From positions 4,531,001 through 4,595,000 of the forward strand of contig NZ_CP073104.1 in NCBI RefSeq assembly GCF_018138145.1: a stretch of 64,000 nt of DNA. Reading direction: 5' to 3'. Shown piece after piece: positions 11,680-18,868 of this stretch (position 1 is its first letter; each line of letters opens with the position of its first letter). A program made the translations under genes and the position numbers. A model generated the notes under the pieces. That model had not been told where the DNA came from, did not search any database, and saw nothing but the letters and a program-made list of their open reading frames with translations. This DNA is from Pseudomonas sp. SCA2728.1_7. GTDB taxonomy: Bacteria > Pseudomonadota > Gammaproteobacteria > Pseudomonadales > Pseudomonadaceae.

Positions 11680-13521
11680 TTACAGCCCGTCGAGCATCGC
11701 TTTGTTACGCACAGCACCCTTGTCGGCACTGGTCGCCAGCAGGGCGTAGGCCTTCAGTGCGGTGGTCACTTTACGTGGACGCACTTCAACCGGTTTCCAG
11801 CCTTTCTTGTCCTGCTCGGCACGGCGTGCAGCCAGTTCTTCGTCGCTGACCAACAGGTTGATCGAGCGGTTCGGAATGTCGATCAGCACTTTGTCGCCGT
11901 CCTGCACCAGACCGATAGCGCCACCGGCGGCGGCTTCTGGCGAAGCGTGGCCGATGGACAGACCCGAAGTACCGCCAGAGAAACGCCCGTCGGTGAGCAA
12001 CGCACAGGCTTTGCCCAGGCCTTTGGATTTCAGGTACGAAGTCGGGTAGAGCATTTCCTGCATGCCCGGGCCGCCTTTCGGGCCTTCGTAGCGAATGATG
12101 ACGATGTCGCCAGCCTTCACTTCGTCAGCGAGGATGCCGCGTACGGCGCTGTCCTGGCTTTCGAAGATCTTCGCGTTGCCTTCGAAAACGTGAATCGACT
12201 CGTCAACACCGGCGGTTTTCACCACGCAGCCATCGAGGGCGATGTTGCCGTACAGCACGGCCAGGCCACCTTCTTGCGAATAGGCGTGCTCGAAGCTGCG
12301 GATGCAGCCGTTTTCACGGTCGTCATCCAAAGTTTCCCAGCGCGTCGACTGGCTGAACGCCGTCTGCGTCGGGATACCGGCAGGGCCGGCCTTGAAGAAG
12401 TGATGCACCGCTTCATCGGTGGTCTGGGTAATGTCCCATTTGGCGATGGCTTCTTCCATGCTGCGGCTGTGCACGGTCGGCAGGTCGGTGTGCAGCAAGC
12501 CGCCACGGGCCAGCGAACCGAGGATGCTGAAGATGCCGCCGGCGCGGTGTACGTCTTCCATGTGGTACTTCTGGATGTTCGGCGCGACTTTGCACAGCTG
12601 CGGAACGGTGCGCGAAAGACGATCGATGTCGCGCAGGTCGAAATCGATTTCCGCCTCTTGGGCAGCAGCGAGCAAGTGCAGGATGGTGTTGGTCGAACCG
12701 CCCATGGCGATGTCGAGCATCATCGCGTTCTCGAACGCCTTGAAGTTGGCAATGTTGCGCGGCAATACCGATTCGTCGTTCTCGCCGTAGTAGCGTTTGC
12801 ACAGTTCGACGATGGTACGGCCGGCCTGCAGGAACAGCTGTTCGCGGTCGCTGTGGGTGGCGAGGGTCGAACCGTTGCCCGGCAATGCCAGGCCCAATGC
12901 TTCGGTCAGGCAGTTCATCGAGTTGGCGGTGAACATGCCGGAGCACGAACCGCACGTCGGGCAGGCACTGCGCTCGTACTCAGCGACTTTCTCGTCAGAA
13001 GCGCTTTCGTCGGCGGCGATTACCATGGCATCGACGAGGTCGAGACCGTGGGACGCGAGTTTGGTCTTGCCGGCTTCCATCGGGCCGCCGGAAACGAAGA
13101 TCACCGGAATGTTCAGGCGCAAGGCAGCCATCAACATGCCCGGGGTGATCTTGTCGCAGTTGGAGATGCAGACGATGGCGTCGGCGCAGTGGGCGTTGAC
13201 CATGTACTCGACGGAGTCGGCGATGATTTCGCGGCTCGGCAGCGAATACAGCATGCCGTCGTGACCCATGGCGATGCCGTCATCCACGGCGATGGTGTTG
13301 AATTCTTTCGCTACACCGCCAGCGCGTTCGATTTCGCGGGCGACCAGTTGGCCCAGATCCTTCAGGTGCACGTGACCCGGTACGAACTGGGTGAACGAGT
13401 TGGCAATCGCGATGATCGGCTTTTTGAAGTCGTCATCTTTCATCCCCGTGGCGCGCCACAATGCGCGGGCACCGGCCATGTTGCGGCCGTGGGTGGATGT
13501 TTTCGAGCGGTAATCTGGCAT
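11680..13521 (-). CDS. ilvD: Dihydroxy-acid dehydratase
   Basis: A 613-residue Fe-S dehydratase of valine, leucine and isoleucine synthesis, converting 2,3-dihydroxy acids to 2-oxo acids. Cluster-ligand regions are visible as [11 protein letters not shown] and [18 protein letters not shown]. The C-terminal domain contains [20 protein letters not shown]. The start at 13521 ([15 protein letters not shown]) is the family's standard N-terminus and has GGAGTG upstream; an alternative at 13545 adds eight residues. The 268-base gap upstream, to the MFS gene, is its leader/promoter region. Confidence 0.97.
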
Positions 13522-13779
13522 GGAGCACTCCGGGCGGCTAATCACTTACTAATCAGGTGCAAAAGGGGAGTGAGCTTCTATTGACGTCTGGAACACTCAG
13601 AAATGACCGTGTGTCCGTGAAGTTGCCGATGACGTTGCGGGATCGCCGCTGGTCTCAGCCTGAGCTCATAAACCCGCCGGGGGATGAATGGCGATGAATC
13701 AGCCGATTCTACACCGCTGGCGTCTGGAGGGAATGGCGCAAAGCATTGTTCCAGTGCAGACGGCGTGTGTGGGATGACG

Positions 13780-13806
13780 ACCGGCGGGTTTAATCACCGC
13801 CGGTCT
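13780..13806 (-). terminator. Hairpin at the end of the MFS gene
   Basis: Perfect nine-base stem GACCGGCGG / CCGCCGGTC whose nine-base loop includes the TAA stop of the MFS transporter. There is no T-run, so it may protect the operon 3' end rather than terminate alone. Confidence 0.45.
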
Positions 13807-15022
13807 GTGCAACGACATTGGCCTCTACGTTTCTTGCGCGGCGGCTGAGCCTGTTGTTGAGCACCAGCGCTGTCGCGCTCAATAGCACAAAGCTGTAGCC
13901 CAGCGTTGATTGCAGATTGGTCGGACTGAGGCTGATCAATGCGCTGATAAGCCCGCCACAAATAAAGATGATCGTGCTGCCCGCCGAGGCCGAGGTGCCG
14001 GCGTTTTCAGGAAACAGGCCCATGGCCCGAGAGGTGGCAGCGGGACGGGCGATGGTGGTGCCCGCCGTGCAGATCAGCATCGGAATCAACACAGTGGCCG
14101 GCGCCAGCGCATGATTGGCCGCCAGGTACAGCATCGCCAGCCCCGACAGCAGTATCAGGCTCAGTCCGGTGAGGATTTGCTGAACCGGCGTGATGCGTCG
14201 ATTGAGTACGGCGGCAAGGATGCCACCGACAACGTAGGCAGCGCCGTAAACCAGCAGGATCAGTGAAAAGTCATACGGCGCGAGCTGCAATTGATCCATG
14301 AAGATCAACGGCGAAATCACGATGAAGGAGAAGTGGCAGGCGAAGGCAAACGCTGAAATCAGCCAGTAGCCGACAAACTCGAAGTCCCCCAGCACGCGGC
14401 GGTAGGACTGAATGAAACCGAGCCGCACGCCACTGTTAGCCGGTCGGCTGTTCGGTAAAAACAGCCAGGCCTTGATCAGCACCATGGCGGACAGCGCGGT
14501 AAATACCCAGAAGCTGCCGCGCCAGCCGAGTGTGGCCTGGAGAAAGGTGCCGGCCAGCGGCGATACCGAGATGAAAATCCCGGTGGCGGTGACCATCAGA
14601 ATCCGCAAACGATCGCGTTCCTCACCTTCGAACAGATCCTGCACCAGCGCCTGGGACAGCACGAAACATCCACAGCCCAAGGCCTGCATCACTCGAAAGA
14701 CCAGGAACAGCGAGTAATCGGAGGTCATCACGCAACCGAGCGCGCCAAGCATCGATACGCTCATGCCGGCGAGTAACAAGCCCTTGCGCCCGATCACGTC
14801 CGAGAGTGGGCCGATCAGGACCTGAGCAAATGCGATCCCCACGGCGAACAGACTGATTGACAGTGCGATGTCTGCCGGTGAATGGCGAAAGTGCGTCGCC
14901 AGTGCCGGAAAGGAAGGAAGTAGCACATCCAGTGGAAACACGCCCAACAGCACCATGGCCAGTAACAGGCTGACAGCGGCGCGGCGCTGTCGAGTGGTTG
15001 CCACGGATTTTCCTTTATCCAT
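13790..15022 (-). CDS. Bcr/CflA-type MFS efflux transporter
   Basis: A 410-residue drug:proton antiporter with twelve predicted helices. Typical features are PLDVLLPSFPALATHF after helix 1, the loop motif GPLSDVIGRKGLLLAG at helices 2-3, and the motif-C-like GIFISVSPLAGTFLQ in helix 5. Its start overlaps the diiron oxygenase stop by eight bases, making it the last gene of the accessory operon 17204-13790. There it would most simply export the operon product or give self-resistance. In other settings the family exports bicyclomycin, chloramphenicol or cysteine, so the cargo cannot be named. Confidence 0.85.
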   Translation of the reverse strand: MDKGKSVATTRQRRAAVSLLLAMVLLGVFPLDVLLPSFPALATHFRHSPADIALSISLFAVGIAFAQVLIGPLSDVIGRKGLLLAGMSVSMLGALGCVMTSDYSLFLVFRVMQALGCGCFVLSQALVQDLFEGEERDRLRILMVTATGIFISVSPLAGTFLQATLGWRGSFWVFTALSAMVLIKAWLFLPNSRPANSGVRLGFIQSYRRVLGDFEFVGYWLISAFAFACHFSFIVISPLIFMDQLQLAPYDFSLILLVYGAAYVVGGILAAVLNRRITPVQQILTGLSLILLSGLAMLYLAANHALAPATVLIPMLICTAGTTIARPAATSRAMGLFPENAGTSASAGSTIIFICGGLISALISLSPTNLQSTLGYSFVLLSATALVLNNRLSRRARNVEANVVAQTGGD

Positions 15023-15992
15023 CGATCAGTCCTGCCTTGGCGAAAAGTTTCTGGTTATGGGGAAGGGCAAAAAAACCGGCCTTGCGCAGTGCATCCAGCG
15101 TAGCGATGGAACCTGATCGTGCACGCGCACGATTGGCGTGCACCGTTGCCATGCTGCCGACAATTTCCATCACGTCGCTGTCAGCAATGCCGGCTCCACG
15201 CAAGCTCTGTTGTAGCCAGCGTTCGTCCGCCTCGAAAAAAATCCCGATGATTTCCAGCAGTGTTCTGCTCGCAAAGGTGCGCTGGCGGCTGTTCATCGAC
15301 AGCCAGAAGTAATGGAACGCTTCGGCGAAGTAGCGACTGTGGCGGGCTTCGTCGGCCAGATGGTCACGCAGCATGTCGTTGACGCTGGACACCAGACTGT
15401 CTCGGCAGACGTCCAGCAGCTCCCGGGCAATGATGGTTTCCGAGACGAAACCCAGCAGAAACCATGCCAGTGCCCGGCTCTTTTCTGGCGTGCGGGCAAT
15501 CAGCGCATTCAGGCGGGTGATGCGCTGCGGAGTCGCCGGCCGTCCGGTGATTCCATAGAAATTGGCGATCTGCTCAGCGAGCCGATTGGAGAACAGCGCG
15601 TGGTAACCCTCGTCGGTGTAGAGCTGCAGCGCCGCGTGCTTCATCGGCAGAGGCACATAAATGGGCAGTTCGCGGTGCACGATGACTTCCACGGCACGAT
15701 TGACGATGCGGTGTTCGAGCAGGGTGGTGTAATCGAGAAAGTGCACCAGGTGGTTGGCTGACAGCCGGTGCAATACATCGCGCCCCGCCGCCTGAATGGC
15801 CGGATGTGCCAGATAAGGCAGAAACGCCGGTGGAAACCAATGGCGGGTTTGCAGTTGCAGCGGCACATCGTCGGGCAATTGATAATCATGGGTACTGCTG
15901 CGCACGGAGGCACGGCTGTCCCAGTCTCCCAGGGTGAATTTGAGCGCCCAGGACACCGGTGCTTGATCTGCGTCGGTAATCGACTGGGTCAT
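15015..15992 (-). CDS. AurF-like diiron N-oxygenase family protein
   Basis: A 325-residue helical protein with all seven ligand positions expected for AurF (p-aminobenzoate N-oxygenase): Glu93 (LLEH), Glu128-x-x-His131 (EGYH), Glu185 (SETIIA) and His211-x3-Glu215-x2-His218 (HLADEARH). Spacings nearly equal AurF (35, 57, 26, 4, 3 versus 35, 60, 27, 4, 3). The family oxidises amines to hydroxylamines or nitro groups and includes enzymes of several Pseudomonas natural-product pathways. The start at 15992 has AGAGGT upstream and overlaps the dehydrogenase stop (ATGA). The substrate is unknown; a modified peptide or amino acid is possible from the context. Confidence 0.8.
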   Translation of the reverse strand: MTQSITDADQAPVSWALKFTLGDWDSRASVRSSTHDYQLPDDVPLQLQTRHWFPPAFLPYLAHPAIQAAGRDVLHRLSANHLVHFLDYTTLLEHRIVNRAVEVIVHRELPIYVPLPMKHAALQLYTDEGYHALFSNRLAEQIANFYGITGRPATPQRITRLNALIARTPEKSRALAWFLLGFVSETIIARELLDVCRDSLVSSVNDMLRDHLADEARHSRYFAEAFHYFWLSMNSRQRTFASRTLLEIIGIFFEADERWLQQSLRGAGIADSDVMEIVGSMATVHANRARARSGSIATLDALRKAGFFALPHNQKLFAKAGLIDG

Positions 15993-17061
15993 GCTGACCT
16001 CTCGTGCAACAGTTCGCGCATTTCGTGACACATCACTTGCCCGTCGCTTTCTCCGCAGCCAACAAAAAACAGCGGTTGTTCAGCGCTGCCTTCGATATTG
16101 AGGAGTGCTTCGACCTGCTGGTCGGCAAACGCGCCGGTCAGCCAGGTATTGAGGCCCAGTGCTGTGGCGACCAACTGGAAGGTTTGCGACAGGTGACCGG
16201 CCTCGACGAAGGCCATGCGATAGGCGCGCGAGTGTTCGTACTTCCACCAGAGCCGGTCAAAACGGGGGTGATGAACAACCCCAGCGGCAGGTTGTTGATG
16301 AAATGCTGACCGCCGAGCAGGTGGCCCAGCGCTGGTTCAGGTAATGGACTGACCCGGCTCAAGGTATGGTCGGCCGGATGATAGACATAGATGCCGGGAT
16401 CCAGGCCGTCGACGTTCTGCACCAGCAGGAAGCCTTCGCAAGCGTTCAGGCCGCCGGCGGAAGGACTGCTGCGACGAGCGCTGAGTCCGACGGCGATACT
16501 GTCGTCGCGATCATTGTCACGTTCGTGGAGATAACCGAGGGAAAGGTAGAGCAGGGTACCGACGTCATTCAGCGTTATTGCTGCGCCTGTGTAGCTGCGG
16601 CAGGTTTTGCGCTGGAGCAGAACATTTCCAAGGCTGTTGTCATTCAATGCGCACGGCGCGGGCAGGGCGATACGCTGCTCGGGTGCGGGCGTCGGGCGGG
16701 CTGTAGTGGGCTGAGGGGTGGCCAGTACCTCGTTGCAGTGCGCCAGATATTGTCTGGACCACTCGTGAATATTCTGTGGGGTCTGTTCGCAGGGAATGTT
16801 TTGCGTGCCGATGTGATAAATCTTCGACAGTTCATCCCAACCCCATTGCGGACTGTCTATTTTTGAAATGGTTAGAATGCCCGCGCTTAATAGTTGTGTG
16901 TCTATTATGTTGTGGGTGTCGAAAAGTTTCGGGTTGTGGATTAGTTGTGCAAGTCGATTGGCATAATTCAGATCGAGTTCATGCTGAGTATGGTTTTTAT
17001 AGTTCCACACAATTTGCCCGGGTGAGCGCGGCAATATAAATAAGTAAGGGTTGATGTACAT
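15989..17061 (-). pseudogene. SagB-type nitroreductase-fold dehydrogenase, interrupted by a one-base frameshift
   Basis: Residues 1-267 read in one frame from MYINPYLF (start 17061), and the last 75 or so read in another frame ending at 15989. The first part has a SagB-like N-terminal region (PRSPGQIVWNYKNH) and the FMN-binding nitroreductase fold: RKTCRSYTG near 151, RRSSPSAGGLNACEG at 196-210, PGIYVYHP near 222. The junction is near 16255-16268, where the expected FDRLWWKYEHSRAYRM appears after loss of one base next to runs of four A and five G. The second part (MAFVEAGHLSQTFQLVATAL) is intact. It could be a real mutation, a sequencing error or recoding. SagB proteins oxidise azolines to azoles with FMN, but no YcaO partner is present. 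Confidence 0.8.
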
Positions 17062-17092
17062 ATCTGTCAGTTCACTCTGGAAAAAGTCAAAA

Positions 17093-17124
17093 GGACGCCG
17101 GGATGCCGGCACTTCCCAGCGTCC
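17093..17124 (-). terminator. Intra-operon terminator or attenuator between the peptide gene and the dehydrogenase gene
   Basis: On the minus strand an eleven-base stem GGACGCTGGGA / TCCCGGCGTCC (one G-U pair) encloses a ten-base loop and is followed by TTTTGACTTTTT. It begins nine bases after the peptide stop. This placement would give abundant short peptide mRNA and limited read-through into the enzymes, or allow attenuation. It also argues against a GTG start at 17112, which lies within it. Confidence 0.75.
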
Positions 17125-17132
17125 TGACTTAC

Positions 17133-17204
17133 TTAGCGGGCTTTAGGGGCAACCAGAAAAGCCAGGTTCGCGATTTTTTTACTTTCCAGAGAAATACTTT
17201 TCAT
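17133..17204 (-). CDS. 23-residue precursor-like or leader peptide
   Basis: A short frame absent from usual gene calls: ATG at 17204, TAA at 17133-17135. It is preceded by a strong AAGGAG site eight bases upstream and by a good promoter. The peptide begins MKSISLESKK, has a hydrophobic middle and ends AFLVAPKAR. It has no Cys; three Ser are near the N-terminus and Lys/Arg at both ends. It is too short for a transport signal plus mature protein. Position and context (hairpin terminator, then dehydrogenase, diiron oxygenase, exporter) suggest a RiPP precursor. An attenuation leader is the main alternative, although no single amino acid is strongly enriched. I do not recognise a homologue. Confidence 0.6.
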   Translation of the reverse strand: MKSISLESKKIANLAFLVAPKAR

Positions 17205-17232
17205 GATGTGAACTCCTTGTTCATTGATGGTT

Positions 17233-17285
17233 GAAGTCACCTCGTGGTGACAACTTCATAATAGTTTGTAATGGATTATTGGCAA
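17233..17285 (-). promoter_or_regulatory. Sigma-70-type promoter with a 5' stem-loop for the peptide operon
   Basis: Minus strand: TTGCCA (17285-17280), 16-base spacer, TATTAT (17263-17258). The predicted transcript would begin near 17251 and fold at once into GTCACC-ACGA-GGTGAC, extended by GAAG/CTTC. Such a 5' hairpin can stabilise mRNA. The rest of the 17205-17456 gap is conspicuously AT-rich for this genome and shows no other gene. Confidence 0.6.
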
Positions 17286-17456
17286 GAGGATATTAGGTAG
17301 GAAATTTCCAGTATTTTTGTCGGAGCAGTCTTTAGTCGGAAATAAACTTGTAGGGAAAGTTTCAGCAATTAAAAGACGTAAGGAAATATCCTGCACGTTA
17401 ACGCGAAAATAATTGTAGGAAGTGTTGGGGGATAACGAAGAGGCAGGGCAGCGTGC

Positions 17457-17482
17457 AAAAAAAAGGGAGCCTGCTGGCTCCC
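17457..17482 (-). terminator. Rho-independent terminator after rlmI
   Basis: Seven-base stem GGGAGCC / GGCTCCC with a four-base loop, followed for leftward transcripts by eight T. It lies 16 bases past the rlmI stop and isolates rlmI from the peptide operon. Confidence 0.85.
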
Positions 17483-17498
17483 CTCTTATCCGCGTGTA

Positions 17499-18695
17499 TC
17501 AGCTGTTGGGCAGCAGGCGGCAGGTGATGCTCTTGATGTAGCGCGTTTCGGCGATGGCCGGGTGCACGGGGTGATCCGGGCCCTGACCGCCACGCTCGAG
17601 CAACTGGATGTTGCGATCCAGGTGACGGGCGCTGGTCAGCAGGATGTTCTGCAGGTCATCTTCCGGCAGGTGCATCGAGCATGATGCGCTAACCAGGATG
17701 CCGTCCTTGTTGAGCAGGCGCATGGCTTGCTCGTTCAGGCGGCGGTAGGCGCCTTCGCCGTTTTTCATGTCTTTCTTGCGTTTGATGAATGCCGGCGGAT
17801 CGGCAACGATCACGTCGAAGCGTTCTTCGCTGGCTTTCAATTCTTTCAGCGCTTCGAAAACGTCGCCTTCGATGCAGGTCATCTTGTCGGCGAAGCCGTT
17901 CAGCGCTGCGTTGCGCTCAACGCCATCGAGGGCGAAAGCCGAGGCATCGACGCAGAACACTTCGCTGGCGCCGAATGCGGCAGCCTGTACGCCCCAACCA
18001 CCAATGTAGCTATAGAGGTCAAGGACGCGTTTGCCTTTGGCGTAAGGGGCCAGGCGGGCGCGGTTCATGCGGTGGTCGTAGAACCAGCCGGTTTTCTGAC
18101 CCTGAATGACCGGGGCTTCGAACTTCACGCCGTTCTCTTCCAGCGCCACCCACTCCGGCACCAGGCCGAACACGGTTTCGACGTAGCGGTTGAGGCCTTC
18201 AGCATCACGGGCCGCGGAGTCGTTCTTGAACAGAATGCCGCTTGGCTTGAGCACTTGGGTCAATGCCGCGATCACGTCAACTTTATGTGCTTCCATGGTC
18301 GCCGAGGCGATCTGCACCACAAGGATGTCGCCGAAACGGTCAACGACCAGGCCTGGCAGCAAGTCGGAATCGCCGTAGACCAGACGATAGAACGGCTTGT
18401 CGAACAGACGCTCGCGCAGCGACAAAGCGACGTTCAGGCGATGCACCAGCAGCGACTTGTCCAGCGACAGCTTGATGTCGCGCGACAGCAGGCGAGCGCA
18501 GATCAGGTTGTTCGGGCTCACCGCCACGATGCCCAGCGGTTTGCCGCCGGCAGCTTCGAGGATGGCTTGATCGCCGGCCTGGAAGCCGTGCAAAGGGGTG
18601 GCGGCTACATCGATTTCGTTGCTGTAGACCCACAGGTGACCGGCGCGCAGGCGACGGTCGGCGTTGGCTTTGAGGCGCAAGCTAGGCAGGGACAT
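17499..18695 (-). CDS. rlmI: 23S rRNA (cytosine-1962-C5)-methyltransferase RlmI type
   Basis: A 398-residue class I SAM-dependent rRNA methyltransferase with an N-terminal PUA-like domain (LRLKANADRRLRAGHLWVYSNEI). The Rossmann domain has VLDLYSYIGGWGVQAAAFG as SAM motif I, VDAS for the acidic residue and VADPPAF as the PPxF-like motif. The catalytic-region SASCSMHL supplies the m5C cysteine. The start at 18695 has CGGAG upstream; an ORF start at 18866 would run through a REP pair. It modifies ribosomal RNA in the large-subunit peptidyl-transferase region. Confidence 0.88.
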   Translation of the reverse strand: MSLPSLRLKANADRRLRAGHLWVYSNEIDVAATPLHGFQAGDQAILEAAGGKPLGIVAVSPNNLICARLLSRDIKLSLDKSLLVHRLNVALSLRERLFDKPFYRLVYGDSDLLPGLVVDRFGDILVVQIASATMEAHKVDVIAALTQVLKPSGILFKNDSAARDAEGLNRYVETVFGLVPEWVALEENGVKFEAPVIQGQKTGWFYDHRMNRARLAPYAKGKRVLDLYSYIGGWGVQAAAFGASEVFCVDASAFALDGVERNAALNGFADKMTCIEGDVFEALKELKASEERFDVIVADPPAFIKRKKDMKNGEGAYRRLNEQAMRLLNKDGILVSASCSMHLPEDDLQNILLTSARHLDRNIQLLERGGQGPDHPVHPAIAETRYIKSITCRLLPNS

Positions 18696-18779
18696 GACGT
18701 CGCTCCGGAAAAAAGAGCGGGAGTATAGCGTGTTGCGACTTGTGTCGGGTTTGATGAGCGATGAAACGCTGATGGCCCC

Positions 18780-18853
18780 TTCGCGAGCAGGCTCGCTCCC
18801 ACAAAGGGCTTGTGACCGACACAAGACCAATGTGGGAGCGAGCCTGCTCGCGA
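18780..18853. repeat. REP pair, GCTCCCAC class
   Basis: Inverted copies of TTCGCGAGCAGGCTCGCTCC with a spacer containing TTGTG...CACAA, which extends the pairing. Located between the PfpI-like gene and rlmI. Confidence 0.9.
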
Positions 18854-18868
18854 ATGCGGTCCCCAATG

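Follow-up and report, generated by a model that had tools for sequence, protein, structure and literature searches.

The chromosome of Pseudomonas sp. SCA2728.1_7 (6.78 Mb, one contig, NZ_CP073104.1) carries, on its minus strand, a four-gene operon that very probably encodes a leader-guided pathway toward a ribosomally synthesized and post-translationally modified peptide (RiPP) without a YcaO enzyme. The operon lies in the window analyzed here, i.e., the whole stretch of 64,000 nucleotides from position 4,531,001 to 4,595,000, and associates a 23-codon peptide gene with genes for a SagB-type nitroreductase, an AurF-type diiron oxygenase, and an MFS exporter. In more detail, it is likely to be a minimal YcaO-free RiPP operon combining SagB dehydrogenation guided by a RiPP recognition element (RRE), AurF oxygenation at Asn13 of the peptide, proteolysis, and export. 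It appears to represent a kind of ribosomal natural product not yet described. RiPPs, SagB enzymes, and AurF enzymes are each already known; their combination was not found among the papers listed in literature searches of open-access PMC.

Organization of the Operon

In the order of transcription, a promoter, a 5' stem-loop, and a hairpin at the Shine-Dalgarno site precede the 23-codon frame, which is followed by a strong hairpin and then by sagB, the AurF-type gene, and the MFS gene. The coding features are the following:

17133..17204, minus strand, putative precursor peptide gene, 23 residues, MKSISLESKKIANLAFLVAPKAR, with a leader-like MKxIxLE start and Asn13 (open reading frame and conservation)
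16138..17061, minus strand, N-terminal part of sagB, with an RRE-like domain (about residues 1-85) and the start of a flavin mononucleotide (FMN) nitroreductase domain
15989..16216, minus strand, C-terminal part of sagB in another frame, from its first ATG (PF00881, 1.2e-07)
15015..15992, minus strand, AurF-type ferritin-like diiron oxygenase, 325 residues (PF11583, seven AurF iron ligands conserved)
13790..15022, minus strand, MFS exporter, 410 residues, closest to Bcr/CflA (PF07690, 1.1e-39)

An earlier note on this DNA had described these parts and their overlaps, which are present as stated: sagB and the AurF-type gene overlap by ATGA (15992-15989), and the AurF-type and MFS genes by 8 bases (15015-15022). 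The same note took sagB as intact, which does not hold, the gene (total span 17061-15989) being split between two frames, the first of which runs out past the break. Its remark that no YcaO is present was confirmed for the operon and flank genes, the rest of the genome not having been searched. The MFS protein scores 191.4 bits against TIGR00710 (Bcr/CflA), slightly under the cut-off of 200.9.

Conservation of the Peptide Gene

With the AurF-type protein as query, 37 of 194 genomes display a match at E <= 1e-20 (own genome included), all belonging to one genus. The first comparison covered 110 loci, i.e., the window, 29 relatives, and 80 database loci from a species-representative collection, all Pseudomonas, with strains partly shared between the sets. 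The order peptide, SagB, diiron oxygenase, MFS exporter is found in all 110 loci, some copies having a broken frame (e.g., L107, L026, and L030). Among the 31 loci first fetched, 30 (the window included) carry all four genes, the remaining one, L002, being a distant paralogue that was left out of the operon counts. The diiron and MFS genes are matched in 80/80 database loci, where the peptide was found by pattern in 79 cases and by hand and tblastn in L108. Among eight weaker matches, five have the peptide by tblastn, L134 (MKEVILECKKLANLNYIVKAK) and L135 (MKVIHMETTQLANFALVVQACK) have it by eye, and in L136, a decayed operon, both the peptide and sagB are missing.

The 117 copies of the peptide gene (105 distinct) encode 67 distinct peptides. 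Purifying selection is seen in the frame of the peptide alone: its ratio of nonsynonymous to synonymous changes (pN/pS) is 0.405, whereas the two alternative frames give 1.13 and 2.77. These values come from 89 distinct 23-codon sequences, and the codon table admitted no copies other than the 99 of that length. Conservation peaks at A12-N13-L14 rather than at the C-terminal end. As expected of a RiPP, an encoded precursor candidate thus adjoins modifying enzymes and is conserved as a protein. The earlier note had proposed, as arguments against its RiPP-like reading, a peptide frame not conserved in relatives with the same enzymes, or enzymes regularly found without an upstream short frame. Neither is observed, the decaying loci L136 and L159 aside: the peptide is kept in relatives, and enzymes without the short frame are not a regular occurrence.

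A Seemingly Modular Family with a Common Leader-like Start

The family was extended by a SagB survey of 398 Pseudomonas genomes, from which mainly divergent loci were fetched and many close ones left out. SagB is matched at E <= 1e-40 in 116 of these genomes, AurF-less and broken copies being counted; in G793 and G816, the match is confined to the nitroreductase domain. For the divergent loci, the peptide was picked by visual inspection of a listing of every frame. Type A, to which the window belongs, includes AurF and MFS, whereas type B (L137-L143) includes SagB and MFS in an operon without AurF. Types C (L154, L155, and L160) and D (L156-L158) are without AurF or a close MFS relative; in the annotated loci L154 and L156, a carbamoyltransferase (PF02543/PF16861) and an MFS_1 protein are encoded downstream, together with a TPR-methyltransferase in L156. 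Outside the genus, L192 (1908-3742) encodes SagB, a LysE exporter (PF01810), and a 38-residue peptide carrying KKFCALMPVM twice, and L193 displays MKRVYIEDTAPYALGVAVAVYTTC upstream.

The pattern M-x-x-[IVA]-x-[LMIV]-[EQ], which was written post hoc, fits 93/93 distinct peptides (types A-D, L192, and L193), and the C-terminal part of the peptide differs with the gene set, so that the shared leader and variable core of RiPP precursors are found. The putative precursors count 21-26 residues in types A and B and 33-58 in their relatives. These loci suggest a modular family, AurF being absent or having a carbamoyltransferase or a LysE exporter in its place.

Some further features were noticed in the relatives. 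Types C and D combine their 33-58-residue peptide, which contains SN[ND]AY, with a SagB-like protein. By eye, a terminator-like hairpin can be made out behind the L192 peptide gene, and a class I/II aminotransferase is encoded further along, beyond an RRXRR gene. In the more distant L187, L188, and L189, which belong to another family, a near-identical 31-residue frame stands upstream of a SagB-like gene (MAKKVNNAPKLTVAAGTQTVFFSQGMHYNKR in L187 and L188). It is possibly a further type of precursor; the leader pattern of the other peptides finds no fit in this candidate frame.

The SagB and AurF Proteins

The N-terminal domain of SagB, as seen in the predicted fold of an intact relative, matches RREs above all else, and also part of ThcOx; this modifying enzyme is thus predicted to carry an RRE-like domain. 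At full length, the best structural matches are ThcOx, BmdC, and McbC. Intact relatives (the window copy being frameshifted) have the FMN nitroreductase fold with a Lys-Tyr motif, which we take to be the hallmark of SagB/ThcOx proteins, and they belong to that group.

The AurF-type protein belongs to the AurF family, scoring above the curated cut-off of PF11583 (73.8 bits for a cut-off of 29.6, 1.7e-20) and possessing the seven iron ligands of AurF, numbered as we presume them to be, which are invariant in all 114 aligned rows (the query added to 113 loci, so that the window counts twice). It also matches the solved structure 3chh, named p-aminobenzoate N-oxygenase (1.6e-14), and misses by far the NCBI 4-aminobenzoate N-oxygenase model (61.8 bits versus a cut-off of 620). 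A second AurF relative with about 24-25% identity is encoded in the same genome (C1:4014750-4015283, the paralogue L002), in a 3.5-kb locus without match to the other operon genes.

Overall, the RiPP-like reading is strongly supported by the conservation of the peptide, the RRE-like domain of SagB in the predicted structure, and the shared leader-like N-terminus, and further by C-terminal parts that vary with the tailoring genes and by the duplicated segment in the peptide of a relative.

Asn13 and the Diiron Oxygenase

Asn13 occurs in 74/74 distinct peptides where the locus has a diiron gene, and in 0/12 where the locus lacks one (type B providing 7 of these and types C and D 5), each distinct peptide being counted once. 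Beyond Met1, it is the only residue invariant in the peptides of AurF loci, and position 13 is A, G, or H in type B and Ala in L192. L136, L159, L149 (contig end), L160, L166, and the frameshifted L145, L161, L164, and L165 were left out of this table; the last four have both the diiron gene and Asn13, and only L159 contradicts the pattern among all dropped rows.

Several points limit this association. The pattern used to search the peptide in the 80 database loci contained Asn, and position 13 is insecurely aligned in types C and D. Type B is nested among AurF carriers in a quick tree (SH-aLRT 99), and its unity receives a bootstrap of only 68% in a careful tree; the contrast between Asn13 and AurF consequently rests on few independent events. 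The decaying locus L159, outside the count, has kept Asn13 without AurF. Finally, an AurF relative is encoded elsewhere in 7/7 type B genomes, as it is in two of the three type A genomes tested alongside (G019 and G046, whereas G116 has the operon copy only).

Proposed Pathway and Alternatives

According to the proposed pathway, the 23-residue peptide would be the precursor, and its MKxIxLE start would be bound by the RRE-like domain predicted on SagB. The FMN nitroreductase domain would then dehydrogenate the peptide, likeliest at the bulky position 14 (L, F, W, M, or H), into a dehydroamino acid, and the AurF-type enzyme may oxygenate the neighboring Asn13, on nitrogen or carbon, as the co-occurrence of Asn13 with the diiron gene suggests. 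Host proteases would trim the peptide, and the MFS pump would export a small product, perhaps an antimetabolite; the occurrence of MFS and LysE exporters in the family points to such a small product after proteolysis. Both modifications are proposed by analogy with the nearest precedent, PflD from Pseudomonas, whose nitroreductase domain, in the excerpts of its description considered here, makes Z-dehydrophenylalanine without YcaO, while its other domain hydroxylates the neighboring Asp (PMC12636437). In the same excerpts, the authors mention that other YcaO-free nitroreductases may form different dehydroamino acids (PMC12636437).

More tentatively, and with somewhat less than even confidence, the family may be regarded as an undescribed RiPP class built on an RRE-fused, YcaO-independent SagB and a short precursor (21-26 residues in types A and B, 33-58 in relatives). 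The exporters (MFS or LysE) would be interchangeable, and so would the tailoring (AurF, none, or a carbamoyltransferase, alone or together with a methyltransferase). In its AurF branch, an Asn would be oxygenated beside a dehydroamino acid to give a small exported product, e.g., an N-hydroxy- or beta-hydroxy-asparagine dipeptide antimetabolite.

The same RiPP pathway could also involve another chemistry. AurF would act on another residue or on a proteolysed fragment (e.g., its freed N-terminal amine), with Asn13 used for recognition only, or the product would be an N-oxygenated small amine. Characterized AurF relatives are amine N-oxygenases, in agreement with the name p-aminobenzoate N-oxygenase of the matched PDB entry, and the few independent events behind the link between Asn13 and AurF leave room for this explanation. 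It is nevertheless somewhat doubtful, given that Asn13 is the sole invariant residue beyond Met1 in AurF loci and that A, G, or H takes its place in the AurF-less type B.

The other alternatives depart further from the preferred pathway. The peptide might be a regulatory leader (an attenuator or a ribosome-arrest peptide), the enzymes acting on a free small molecule. This is unlikely: although the operon includes an exporter and a strong hairpin lies behind the short frame, with a stem of at least 6 pairs in 121/121 distinct spacers, SagB carries an RRE-like domain, the peptide varies in step with the tailoring genes, and that of L192 has a duplicated segment; moreover, the hairpin leaves the ribosome site of sagB uncovered in the window and a T-run is present in only about 22 of the 121 spacers. 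A pearlin-like scaffold role, in which a building block would be attached to the C-terminus of the peptide, or processed there, and finally released by cleavage, would suit small-molecule exporters and a peptide that is short and ends mostly in a basic residue (R in 97 of the 99 copies of 23 residues). Such a role is highly improbable, as the operon genes include no peptide-aminoacyl-tRNA ligase or ATP-dependent ligase and conservation is maximal at A12-N13-L14 instead of at the end. It is equally hard to believe in an azole-forming thiazole/oxazole-modified microcin or linear azol(in)e-containing peptide (TOMM/LAP) pathway with a cyclodehydratase encoded elsewhere in the genome. Indeed, whereas SagB/ThcOx-type enzymes usually oxidize azolines and the best full-length structural matches are to ThcOx, BmdC, and McbC, the peptide alignment reveals no Cys/Ser/Thr-rich core, these residues being few beyond position 8 and none standing at a constant place, and YcaO is absent from the operon and flank genes, to which that search was confined.

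If the preferred pathway is true, an AurF-type diiron enzyme would have a peptide as substrate, SagB-type enzymes would have, as far as searched, a second YcaO-independent role in RiPPs beside PflD, and the product family would be widespread in Pseudomonas. The size of the operon, three proteins and a 23-residue peptide, makes the whole pathway testable in one co-expression, and the natural swap series (with AurF, without it, or with a carbamoyltransferase) offers a direct test of how residue 13 and the oxygenase are linked.

Comparison with Known Systems

The pfl/pos clusters (PflA-F; Os1348-1351 of strain Os17), in the portions of the two reports considered, resemble the operon by a precursor, a YcaO-free SagB-type nitroreductase, transporters, and the same genus, and resemble its proposed chemistry by an oxygenase working on the residue adjoining the dehydrogenated one (PMC12636437, PMC7726476). 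They differ, in those portions, by a longer precursor (85 residues in Os17) with an ARMD tail, a fusion of a multinuclear non-heme iron oxidative enzyme (MNIO) with the nitroreductase, an HEXXH enzyme, and a GNAT protein, whereas in the operon the peptide counts 23 residues, SagB is the protein fused to an RRE-like domain, and the oxygenase is a diiron enzyme of the AurF type. Neither the MNIO-nitroreductase fusion nor the HEXXH enzyme was found among the open reading frames of the operon and their Pfam matches. Frames of 655-665 residues, part of which match SagB, were noticed in other genomes (G083:C12:68907-69557, G079:C59:22440-23081, G108:C1:1522183-1522818, and G061:C1:1498686-1499309); they may be the MNIO-nitroreductase fusion of pfl clusters.

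The Pantocin A operon (PaaP, PaaA, PaaB, and PaaC) also includes, in the part of its description used here, a very short precursor (30 residues) with a conserved centre, an RRE-bearing first enzyme, one oxygenase, and one exporter within about 3.5 kb (PMC12250964). Unlike the present operon, it relies on the ThiF-like PaaA, a 2-oxoglutarate-Fe(II) oxygenase, and an EamA-family exporter (PMC12250964, same part); neither an RRE-ThiF enzyme nor such an oxygenase appears among the open reading frames and Pfam matches of the operon. The gvg cluster, responsible for formylaminooxyvinylglycine, shares with the family required small open reading frames and a redox enzyme, a carbamoyltransferase as in types C and D, and LysE exporters as in L192, in the sections considered (PMC8067088, PMC8064604). 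Its gene table, in the section seen, lists no SagB or AurF and includes the heme-oxygenase-like GvgC, an aminotransferase, and a formyltransferase (PMC8064604).

At the enzyme level, McbC, SagB, ThcOx, and the nonribosomal peptide synthetase oxidase BmdC have the nitroreductase fold in common with the SagB of the operon, which differs from TOMM/LAP dehydrogenases by having neither an adjoining YcaO cyclodehydratase nor a Cys/Ser/Thr-rich core to work on. The operon enzyme and AurF, a p-aminobenzoate N-oxygenase, have in common PF11583, the structure match, and the seven iron ligands, but the substrate of the former is probably a peptide and the NCBI N-oxygenase model is missed.

Genomic Site

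Types A and B are mostly located in the interval between rlmI and ilvD (13546-17498 in the window), as we take the two flank genes to be:

17499..18866, minus strand, rlmI, flank of the chromosomal site (open reading frame)
11680..13545, minus strand, ilvD, other flank of the site (open reading frame)

Both flanks are found in 79 of the 80 database loci, the 80th having rlmI alone, and in 7/7 type B loci. Among the 38 loci L129-L166 (type B included, with shorter flanks), 16 have both, 5 have one, and 17 have neither; several deep type A loci fall into this last group, as do types C and D.

Frameshift in sagB and Decay of the Operon

A single-base frameshift splits the sagB gene of the window at about 16267-16288, where the profile matches in its own genome stop and then resume, at about 16288, in a different frame. 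Two conserved blocks lie 845 bases apart in the window, against 846 in the nearest relative, and this distance is divisible by three in 29/29 relatives. An intact sagB, in a single frame of 356-361 codons, is present in 29/29 relatives and in 79 of the 80 database loci, and a whole-genome search at E <= 1e-20 detected no second copy in the window genome. The break may be a real mutation or a sequencing error; because of it, the SagB pathway is probably silent in this genome, unless the sequence is in error. The two pieces were searched separately, and the pathway was described from intact relatives. Programmed frameshifting as an explanation of the split gene is unsupported, since these relatives and database loci have one open frame and other broken copies break at different positions.

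Decay of the operon has occurred repeatedly, sagB or diiron frames being broken at varied places or parts being lost, with the peptide mostly retained. This includes broken sagB genes (L107/L163, L133, L145, L150, L161, L164, and L165), broken diiron genes (L026, L030, and L148), and loci with missing parts, namely L136, where the diiron gene is also broken, and L159, where it is lost and most of SagB is gone.

Putative Regulatory Elements

The noncoding features of the operon are the following:

17258..17285, minus strand, sigma-70-like promoter TTGCCA-16-TATTAT (consensus scan, 10/12 matches, a consensus match only)
17233..17257, minus strand, stem-loop GTCACC-ACGA-GGTGAC of the 5' untranslated region (predicted fold)
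17209..17223, minus strand, hairpin TGAAC-AAGGA-GTTCA with GGA at the Shine-Dalgarno site, a possible RsmA/RsmE (Gac/Rsm) element
17084..17130, minus strand, hairpin between the peptide gene and sagB, terminator-like in the window genome (-30.4 kcal/mol, z -3.82)

Two promoter-like sites occur in the region versus 0.8 in shuffles, and the predicted fold of 17258-17193, which spans the 5' stem-loop and the Shine-Dalgarno hairpin, is unexceptional (-14.2 kcal/mol, z -1.33).

Of 100 distinct upstream stretches, 91 have ANGGA at the Shine-Dalgarno site. ANGGAN motifs within or close to the Shine-Dalgarno sequence are bound by RsmA/RsmE in Pseudomonas (PMC7726476), which makes Gac/Rsm control plausible in the lineage of the window, as judged from sequence. 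A perfect stem of at least 4 bp surrounds ANGGA in 38/100 stretches versus 0.35% in shuffled flanks, and the variant TGAC/GTCA of this hairpin alters both arms. On the other side, the upstream sequences are related, so that the 38 stems are not 38 independent cases, and the stem is missing in 62/100; many further copies, deep branches included, show a weak hairpin or none. In the lineage of the window, Gac/Rsm acting at the ribosome site of the peptide would turn the operon on late in growth.

The hairpin between the peptide gene and sagB would lead to more peptide than enzyme mRNA. None of 200 shuffles is as good as the window hairpin, and the stem persists across the 121 spacers though its sequence changes, with a median z of -2.34 against mononucleotide shuffles and a z below -2 in 73/121. 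Given the few spacers with a T-run after the stem, this hairpin is not always a terminator. GCCGGC is found in the loop region of 101 of the 121 distinct spacers (17062-17132 in the window, and relatives), while the stem varies.

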